Positions 9,471-63,814 of a stretch of 64,000 bases of DNA are shown piece by piece (positions within the stretch are counted from its first letter, which is position 1; each line of letters begins with the position of its first letter). A program made the position numbers and the translations under genes. The notes under the pieces are model-generated. The model was not told where the DNA came from. It was given only the letters and a program-made list of their open reading frames with translations, and searched no databases. This DNA is from Pseudomonadota bacterium (GTDB lineage Bacteria; Pseudomonadota; Alphaproteobacteria; Dongiales; Dongiaceae): the NCBI GenBank assembly GCA_021792365.1, contig JAJYUT010000005.1, forward strand, positions 1 through 64,000. Direction: 5' to 3'.

Positions 9471-9576
9471 TTCGTCATCCCAAGGCTTGGCCTTGGGATC
9501 CACGAGTTTGTCTGCACCGTTTCGGTCTCTCCCGGCAAAACTCGTGGATGGCAAGGCCAAGCCTTGCCATGACGAA
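9471..9576. repeat. long palindromic repeat element, cloverleaf-capable (copy 2)
   Basis: Outer arms TTCGTCAT (9471-9478) and ATGACGAA (9569-9576) pair. Central arms ATCCACGAGTTT (9498-9509) and AAACTCGTGGAT (9538-9549) enclose a 28-base spacer containing GTTTCGGTCTC. The left side arm CCCAAGG..CCTTGGG and the right side arm GGCAAGG..CCTTGCC each fold on themselves around CTTGG/CCAAG. A decayed extra half-unit follows at about 9584-9604. It sits between convergent genes. The central arms, spacer length and GTTTCGGTCTC core are shared with the copy at 62681. Confidence 0.9.
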
Positions 9577-9620
9577 GGTACGAAGGCCAAGTCTTGCCAT
9601 CACGGTTGGAGGCGGCGCGC

Positions 9621-62008: not shown

Positions 62009-62089
62009 AGGGCGGACTCCCTAACGGCGAGGGGCGGAGTATACTGACCCCTCCCGCGCCCGGAAAGCGCGGCGTTGCAGGGGGATGGG

Positions 62090-62656
62090 ATGAGCTCAAG
62101 TCTGCGCAGCTTTGCCTTGGTCGGCGCCGTTCTGGCCGGCGCCTCTTTCGTCACGGCGATTGCCGGCGCCCAGGAGGAGGGCGGCGGCAATGCCACCGCG
62201 CAGCCGACCGCCATGACACCGCAAAACCAGATCGAGGCCGACGAGGGCGATCATCACGAAGGGTACTATTACCCGAAGCCCGGCAGCTTCGAGCACTACC
62301 CGGCGCGGGTCTACACCCTGCCGGACAGCGACCGCGTGCGGCGGCAGGCCTTCGTGATCGGCCTCACCAAGCAATTGGTGGGCGCGCAATACGCGCCCAC
62401 CTACGCGGTCTTTGCCAAGGGCGCCGGCTCCGACAAGCTGATCATCGTCGCGCTCGGCGAGGGGCAGCTCAACACGATCTACCGCGCGCGGGCGCTGCTC
62501 GCGACCTTCACCTCGGTGGCGCGCTCGACCTCGTTCTTCCAGCAGAACACGCAGCCGGATGAGTCAACCTTCCTCGATCTGCTGAAGCTGCTTGGATTCA
62601 AGCAGGTGACCATCAGCGACGGCCGCGCCTTCGCGCATCAGGTCATCATCGATTGA
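62090..62656 (+). CDS. secreted protein of unknown function
   Basis: A 188-residue protein with a signal peptide (FALVGAVLAGASFVTAIAGA). It has a tyrosine/histidine-rich start to the mature part (DHHEGYYYPKPGSFEHY) and a folded C-terminal domain (QAFVIGLTKQLVGAQYAPTYAVF; LLGFKQVTISDGRAFAHQVII). No family is recognised. It likely acts in the periplasm or outer membrane. ATG 62090 is preceded by AGGGGGATGG. It ends facing the palindromic repeat at 62681. Confidence 0.7.
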   Translation: MSSSLRSFALVGAVLAGASFVTAIAGAQEEGGGNATAQPTAMTPQNQIEADEGDHHEGYYYPKPGSFEHYPARVYTLPDSDRVRRQAFVIGLTKQLVGAQYAPTYAVFAKGAGSDKLIIVALGEGQLNTIYRARALLATFTSVARSTSFFQQNTQPDESTFLDLLKLLGFKQVTISDGRAFAHQVIID

Positions 62657-62680: not shown

Positions 62681-62790
62681 CTTCCGTCATGGTCGTGCTC
62701 GGCACGACCATCCACGAGTTTGCCTGACGTGTTTCGGTCTCGCTCGGAGAAACTCGTGGATGGTCGGACCAAGCCCGACCATGACGAAGG
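62681..62790. repeat. long palindromic repeat element, cloverleaf-capable (copy 3)
   Basis: Outer arms CGTCAT (62685-62690) and ATGACG (62781-62786) pair. Central arms ATCCACGAGTTT (62710-62721) and AAACTCGTGGAT (62750-62761) enclose a 28-base spacer with GTTTCGGTCTC. The left side arm GGTCGTGC-TCG-GCACGACC and right arm GGTCGG-ACCAAGC-CCGACC are each self-complementary. It lies between the convergent secreted-protein gene and moaA. Confidence 0.9.
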
Positions 62791-62821: not shown

Positions 62822-63814
62822 TTATCCGCCCGTGACGCTCATGTGCCGCTGCACGGCGGGGCCTTTGTGGCGGCGATCAATGATGAAATCGTGGCCCTTG
62901 GGCTTGCGGCTGATGGCTTCGTCCATGGCTTCCATCAGCAGCGCGTCGTCCTCGCTCGCGCGCAGGGGCGCGCGCAGGTCGGCGGAATCGTCCTGGCCGA
63001 GGCACATGTAGAGCATGCCGGTGCAGGTGAGGCGCACGCGGTTGCAGCTTTCACAGAAGTTGTGGGTGAGGGGCGTGATGAAGCCGACGCGCTGCCCCGT
63101 CTCCGTGATGCGCGCATAGCGCGCGGGGCCGCCCGTGCGGTAGTCGATCTCCTCCAGCGTGTAGCGCGTCTTCAGCTTGGCCCGCAGCAGCGAGATCGGA
63201 AGATACTGGTCGAGCCGGTTCTCCCCGCCGATATCGCCCATCGGCATCACCTCGATGAAGGTGATGTCGTGGCCCTCGCGCCCGCACCAGTCGATCAGGT
63301 CGAAGGCTTCGTCATCGTTCACGCCCTTGAGCGCGACGGTGTTGACTTTGACCCTGATGCCGGCCGCGTTCGCGGCCTTGATGCCGTCGAGCACGGGGCC
63401 GAGCTTGCCCCAGCGCGTGATGGCGGTGAACTTCTCCGGGTCGAGCGTGTCGATCGAGACGTTGACTCGCTTCACCCCGCATTCGGCGAGCTCCACTGCA
63501 TGCTTGCCGAGCTGGCTGCCATTGGTGGTGAGGGTCAGCTCGTCGAGCGCGCCGCTCTCCAAATGCCGCGACAGGCGGCGGATCAGCCACATGACGTTCT
63601 TGCGCACCAGCGGCTCGCCGCCGGTGAGGCGCAGCTTGCGCACGCCCTTCGCGACGAAGGCGCTGCACAGCCGGTCCATCTCCTCCAGCGTCAGCAGCTC
63701 CGCCTTGGGCAAGAAGGTCATGTCCTCCGCCATGCAATAGACACAGCGGAAGTCGCAGCGGTCGGTCACCGACACGCGCAGATAGGAAATGTGCCGCCCA
63801 AACGGATCGATCAT
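62822..63814 (-). CDS. moaA: GTP 3',8-cyclase MoaA
   Basis: A 330-residue radical SAM enzyme that starts molybdenum cofactor synthesis by converting GTP to the 3',8-cyclo form. The SAM cluster ligands are C20, C24 and C27 in CDFRCVYC. The second cluster is CESC with a third cysteine 14 residues on. The protein ends in GG, the conserved tail needed for activity. It supplies cofactor for the molybdenum hydroxylase encoded elsewhere in the window. The 167 bases upstream hold no gene. Confidence 0.96.

Follow-up and report, generated by a model that had tools for sequence, protein, structure and literature searches.

A small GIY-YIG nuclease gene takes the place of the spacer in some copies of an inverted CGTC-REP dimer, and its enclosure between inward-facing repeats is restricted to one nuclease subfamily. 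The element at 62685 in the window (the whole 64,000-nt stretch of DNA that was analysed) is genuine, well past chance, and is a CGTC-REP dimer as judged by its tag, stem, loop, tail and dimer form. We consider it probable, at roughly 0.6, that this copy is a non-autonomous relative of the nuclease-bearing CGTC-REP element and is mobilised in trans by the nuclease.

CGTC-REPs are found across Alphaproteobacteria and in several more phyla, and their defining paper left open by what agent they spread. The occurrence of a subfamily-restricted nuclease between the same repeats makes the question of their spread directly testable, and the enclosed nuclease may be the long-missing enzyme. More tentatively, with confidence somewhat short of even, we propose a widespread transposable element whose sole protein is a GIY-YIG nuclease of ~95 aa, with CGTC-REPs as its ends and the short dimers as its non-autonomous derivatives. 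If true, bacterial transposition would gain a new enzyme class and a system that works without a DDE, HUH, serine or tyrosine recombinase, and a function would be found for genes mostly annotated just as 'GIY-YIG nuclease family protein', 'hypothetical protein' or 'excinuclease ABC subunit C'. No report linking GIY-YIG with repetitive extragenic palindromic sequences was found in the literature searched, which did not include bioRxiv or most subscription journals, and the replacement of the spacer of a CGTC-REP pair by a nuclease gene is apparently unreported so far.

The window element and its genomic copies

The two copies in the window, 62685-62786 and 9473-9574, each extend over exactly 102 bp from CGTC to GACG, and both are placed between convergent genes (Table 1). 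The description in the first-pass annotation agrees with the sequence: the central arms ATCCACGAGTTT and AAACTCGTGGAT, 28 nt apart, and GTTTCGGTCTC (62731-62741 and 9519-9529) are common to both copies, the outer hairpins GGTCGTGC/GCACGACC and GGTCGG/CCGACC are present, and a T-A pair of the left stem is matched by a G-C pair in the right stem. The plan of the 62685 element is CGTC, ATGGTCGTG-CTCGG-CACGACCAT, CCACGAGTTT, 28 nt, AAACTCGTGG, ATGGTCGGA-CCAAG-CCCGACCAT, GACG. Just past the other dimer, at 9578-9604, lies a degraded extra half (ACGAAGGCCAAGTCTTGCCATCACGG) that resembles the right arm of that dimer.

Table 1. Features of the CGTC-REP dimers in the window and their neighbours
Feature	Position	Strand	Basis
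Whole 102-bp inverted CGTC-REP dimer (CGTC...GACG)	62685..62786	+	sequence, genome copies, covariance model
Left REP: CGTC tag, 9-bp stem ATGGTCGTG/CACGACCAT, loop CTCGG, tail CCA	62685..62714	+	sequence; fits CGTC-REP description (PMC3733652)
Left inner arm CCACGAGTTT	62712..62721	+	inner arms 97% identical to consensus, 67 copies
28-nt spacer, length fixed, sequence variable; includes GTTTCGGTCTC at 62731-62741	62722..62749	.	copy comparison
Right inner arm AAACTCGTGG	62750..62759	+	copy comparison
Right REP: CGTC tag, stem ATGGTCGGG/TCCGACCAT, loop CTTGG, tail CCA	62757..62786	-	sequence
Second window copy, same dimer plan, different stems, CCCAAGG/GGCAAGG arms	9473..9574	+	sequence, covariance model; 102 bp
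Gene upstream of the 62685 element, convergent with moaA; stop 28 bp before element	62075..62656	+	
moaA-like gene (molybdenum cofactor biosynthesis), convergent neighbour	62822..63814	-	identified by sequence

CGTC-REPs (Di Nocera et al. 2013, PMC3733652) have an unpaired CGTC (or TGTC/CCTC) tag, a stem of 8-9 bp starting with AT, a loop of 4-5 nt and a CCA tail. The tag is present at both ends of 62685-62786 and the CCA tail in both arms; the left stem has 9 bp and the right one 8 Watson-Crick pairs plus a G-T, each starting with AT and closed by a 5-nt loop. The nearest relatives are the families of that paper with a 9-bp stem and a 5-nt loop, and the likeness extends to the intergenic location, the inverted dimers with mostly unlike arms and the complementary spacer ends. 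Unlike those repeats, the inner arms CCACGAGTTT carry a conserved part well beyond CCA. In PMC3733652, CGTC units flank no RAYT or IS200 transposase gene and seem to be without a dedicated transposase, whereas the CGTC units described here flank a GIY-YIG nuclease gene with a putative transposase role. The dRS3 repeats of Neisseria (CGTC-1) are also of the CGTC-REP type, and in N. gonorrhoeae a related nuclease gene is flanked on both sides by inward dRS3-like repeats; this is a weak case, as the repeats are 160-195 bp off and of a type known to be common there. Rfam gave nothing above the gathering score in the window.

The 62685 element folds far better than shuffled sequences (z = -7.6 as DNA, -9.4 as RNA). 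The minimum-energy fold is one long hairpin rather than separate hairpins, and both shapes are possible. In the window, the covariance model scored this copy, which was among its building set, at 108 bits (E 9e-21). Over 67 dimers, which are inverted and mostly heterodimers, 8.5/9 positions pair within hairpins and 6.4/9 between arms, in accordance with the earlier proposal that the arms alter in sequence yet keep their shape. Identical stems occur in 1/67 dimers, compared with 9.4 expected on random re-pairing of the pooled arms (P ~5e-5) and 4.0 when only the right arms are shuffled (P 0.05). This scarcity agrees with a proposal made in PMC3733652, by which a dimer with unlike arms is protected from the removal of long hairpins.

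About 30 copies are scattered over the element's own genome (covariance model, E <= 0.1; the weakest are doubtful), and model matches were found in 17/17 genomes of the family. Nine own-genome copies match the inner arms exactly, each with a spacer of 28 nt, a length left unbiased by the search pattern, which accepted 20-50 nt. Among 88 model-selected copies the spacer is 27-29 nt long in 82 and 28 nt in 67, a distribution partly biased by the 28-nt spacer of the model itself. The length is lineage-specific, because many elements in one sister genus are shorter (85-89 bp). A small extra palindrome or insert is seen in an arm or spacer of two own-genome copies (L142, L140) and of one in a congener (L171 in G003, e.g. 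CGCCGACGAATGTCGG).

The spacer is the most variable part of the element, and it is its length, not its sequence, that is held. In 67 copies from four genomes, identity to the consensus was 97% for the inner arms and 66% for the spacers, and pairwise identity was 53% for the spacers versus 82% for the other 74 bases (arms); selection on a core sequence, as proposed in the first-pass annotation, is unsupported by these figures. Even copy pairs sharing at least 73/74 arm bases have spacers just 57% identical, and among the nine exact-arm copies GTTTCGGTCTC, the presumed conserved core, occurs only in the two of the window. The conserved-core reading was rejected on these two counts. The annotation had staked that reading on core and spacer not varying elsewhere; in sequence they do vary, whereas spacer length does not. 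A weak consensus, CGGTCTYGCCC, is discernible inside the spacer.

A GIY-YIG nuclease gene between inward CGTC-REPs

The gene-bearing copies contain a GIY-YIG gene of ~95 aa where the short dimers have the 28-nt spacer, and measure ~390 bp from CGTC to GACG (median 392 bp). In the own genome, a gene-sized inward REP pair (C9:801071/801430) encloses a GIY-YIG ORF of about 100 aa; the first REP stands directly before the ORF and faces the second about 360 bp further on. This genome has three genes of the REP-associated subfamily. Two (L247, L245) lie inside inverted CGTC-REPs, in each case with one imperfect REP missed by the strict finder, and the third (L244) is accompanied by repeats of the TGTC type, recognised only by eye, in which the loops are longer.

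In a survey of 84 small GIY-YIG genes of related genomes, 20 had inward CGTC-REPs on both sides by the strict rule. All of them fell into the one subfamily (20/46 versus 0/38 of the other small GIY-YIG genes); the 20/46 comprises 17/43 intact genes and three truncated or disrupted copies (L304, L328, L329) put in the subfamily by eye from their sequence, and without this by-eye assignment the comparison is 17/43 versus 3/41 (P 7e-4). The same arrangement was found at 0/10 uvrC genes, in 0/22,977 windows around moaA (79 genomes) and in 0/1,933 windows from other parts of the surveyed loci, the control windows overlapping and hence being non-independent. Under a relaxed rule the counts were 25/84 small GIY-YIG genes and 12/22,977 control windows. 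The subfamily was split off by profile score, with a clear gap from 77 to 113 bits, using a profile that was partly built from REP-flanked members and scored on protein sequence alone. A motif-based split had mis-sorted some members and was dropped.

PF01541 was matched by 16/16 enclosed nucleases. In the alignment Y21, R31, H35, E68 and N87 are invariant and Y10 nearly so, residues that we take to correspond to the catalytic residues of I-TevI, and the nuclease is predicted to be active. Fold family and size are those of UPF0213-type stand-alone GIY-YIG proteins (PDB 1zg2, 1ywl), and the REP-associated subfamily is clearly separable by profile score from the other small GIY-YIG proteins of these genomes. 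NCBIfam gave no specific family name, and PADLOC no defence-system match. The arrangement recalls REPtrons, in which a RAYT gene is flanked by REPs, in that a small nuclease gene lies inside REPs of the type amplified in the genome concerned; the enzyme is a GIY-YIG nuclease rather than the HUH/Y1 enzyme of REPtrons.

The short dimer and the ~390-bp gene-bearing element of the same genus have hairpins, inner arms CCACGAGTTT and end polarity in common. Gene-bearing elements of the R1 type (G000, G002, G003, G008, G014) carry dimer-like tails CCACGAGTT on at least one side. Their polarity agrees with that of the dimers, because their 3' ends are CCACGAGTTTGC in most cases and the dimers have TTTGC on one side and TTTCG on the other. 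In two congeners, elements that carry the gene and belong to a second CGTC class (L313 in G002, L327 in G003) seem to adjoin one and the same gene end but to point in opposite directions.

Mobility and alternative explanations

Three congeners were compared at nine matching loci, where the site was variously empty or occupied by a dimer of the same class, a dimer of a different CGTC class or a single REP. These empty sites bear out the earlier view of the dimer as a mobile, enzyme-recognised unit. G001 and G002 lack the own genome's gene-bearing element, REPs included, at the matching site, and in G003 a short dimer of another CGTC class is found there. At the G002 site matching 62685, the single REP (L162) resembles a collapsed dimer and looks like the product of a deletion between two like-oriented ATGGTCG stretches. 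In the flanks of 67 dimers the base just outside GACG is a purine in 94%, and the outward strand stays purine-rich for ~10 bases on both sides, a possible insertion preference. No excess of border direct repeats was seen for k = 2-6, hence none of the target-site duplication that marks a MITE of a DDE transposon.

Judging by the arrangement, its specificity and the empty sites, we infer that the nuclease would recognise the REP hairpin with its tail and cut at the CGTC/GACG ends. Such cutting would let both forms move into intergenic sites, the short dimers being mobilised in trans, and the short dimers may arise from the gene-bearing form through internal deletion. What the data themselves establish is the identity of the repeat, its copy number, the empty sites in relatives, the lack of a detectable Y1 transposase in the genus, and a close association of flanking CGTC-REPs with this one nuclease subfamily. 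The model is further favoured by the two flanking stems, which mostly match each other and differ from genome to genome, by the shared tails and end polarity, by the co-occurrence of the nuclease with many CGTC repeats, and by the invariant residues of the nuclease. Counting against it, a strong nuclease match is missing in 13/43 CGTC-rich genomes, over half of the nuclease genes have no REPs on both sides, target-site duplication was not seen, and GIY-YIG enzymes, familiar from homing, restriction and repair, are not known to move REPs.

The main rival is that CGTC-REP dimers existed first and were then entered by the GIY-YIG gene as a passenger or homing endonuclease, the REPs being spread by another enzyme. 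Stand-alone GIY-YIG homing enzymes exist (PMC1564403), and some CGTC-rich genomes are without the nuclease. We nevertheless regard a passenger as unlikely: near-identical arms (at most one difference) are found in 16/20 gene-bearing elements, in which some 300 bp separate the arms, versus 10/67 short dimers (P = 1e-7), so that the gene-bearing form is more than a short dimer that has received a gene. The absence of the entire unit, REPs too, from the matching site in two congeners also argues against it.

Even less probable is that selection keeps the dimers chiefly as RNA-level devices, which would terminate transcription in both directions or stabilise the 3' ends of convergent genes, with mobility of minor importance. 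The very stable folds, the preserved hairpin pairing and the convergent genes around both window copies would suit such a role, whereas several matching sites are empty in congeners and the inner arms are fixed in sequence, beyond what shape alone would require. The architecture also resembles that of REPINs, in which the mobile unit is an inverted REP pair and the spacer is conserved in length and diverse in sequence (Bertels and Rainey 2011, PMC3116915; PMC8049555), as it is here; the tag is CGTC instead of the GTAG of REPINs. An ordinary REPIN moved by a RAYT (REP-associated tyrosine transposase) is nonetheless very improbable: Y1_Tnp/RAYT (PF01797) had no match in any of G000-G003, the own genome and three congeners, while control genomes were matched as expected. 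The RAYT suggested in the first-pass annotation was rejected as the mobiliser for the four genomes of the genus, and the GIY-YIG nuclease is the better candidate.

Distribution in other genomes

The subfamily profile matched 86/240 genomes of the class (E <= 1e-8). Among 66 located class-wide members, 18 had REPs on both sides and 19 on one side by the strict rule. A slightly wider finder gave two-sided REPs in Azospirillum lipoferum 4B, Rhizobium sp. CIAT894, Shinella sp. HZN7, Neorhizobium sp. EC2-8, Sphingobium sp. TomTYG46 and a record labelled Aeromonas caviae, and REP pairs were recognisable by eye on Sinorhizobium meliloti pSymB and Novosphingobium pNL2. Photobacterium had REP-like repeats on one side, at a distance, and the finder gave no REPs beside the nuclease gene in Planktothrix and Rhizobium tumorigenes.

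The nuclease was present in 30/43 CGTC-rich versus 38/197 other genomes (P 3e-10) and, among genomes of at least 3 Mb, in 29/39 versus 14/63 (P 3e-7); phylogeny is ignored in both tests, 'CGTC-rich' rests on counting a pattern, with the cut-off of 12 chosen after the counts were seen, and the pattern also matches coding sequence in some genomes. G120, G250 and G096 are counter-cases, being CGTC-rich yet without a strong nuclease match. The related GIY-YIG gene of Planktothrix agardhii (L427, NZ_LR882964.1) has an MmeI-type enzyme on one side and drmA of a DISARM system on the other. Three PLSDB 'plasmids' of 2.2-4.9 Mb (NZ_CP119142.1, NZ_CP119140.1, NZ_AP026896.1) are apparently mislabelled chromosomes.
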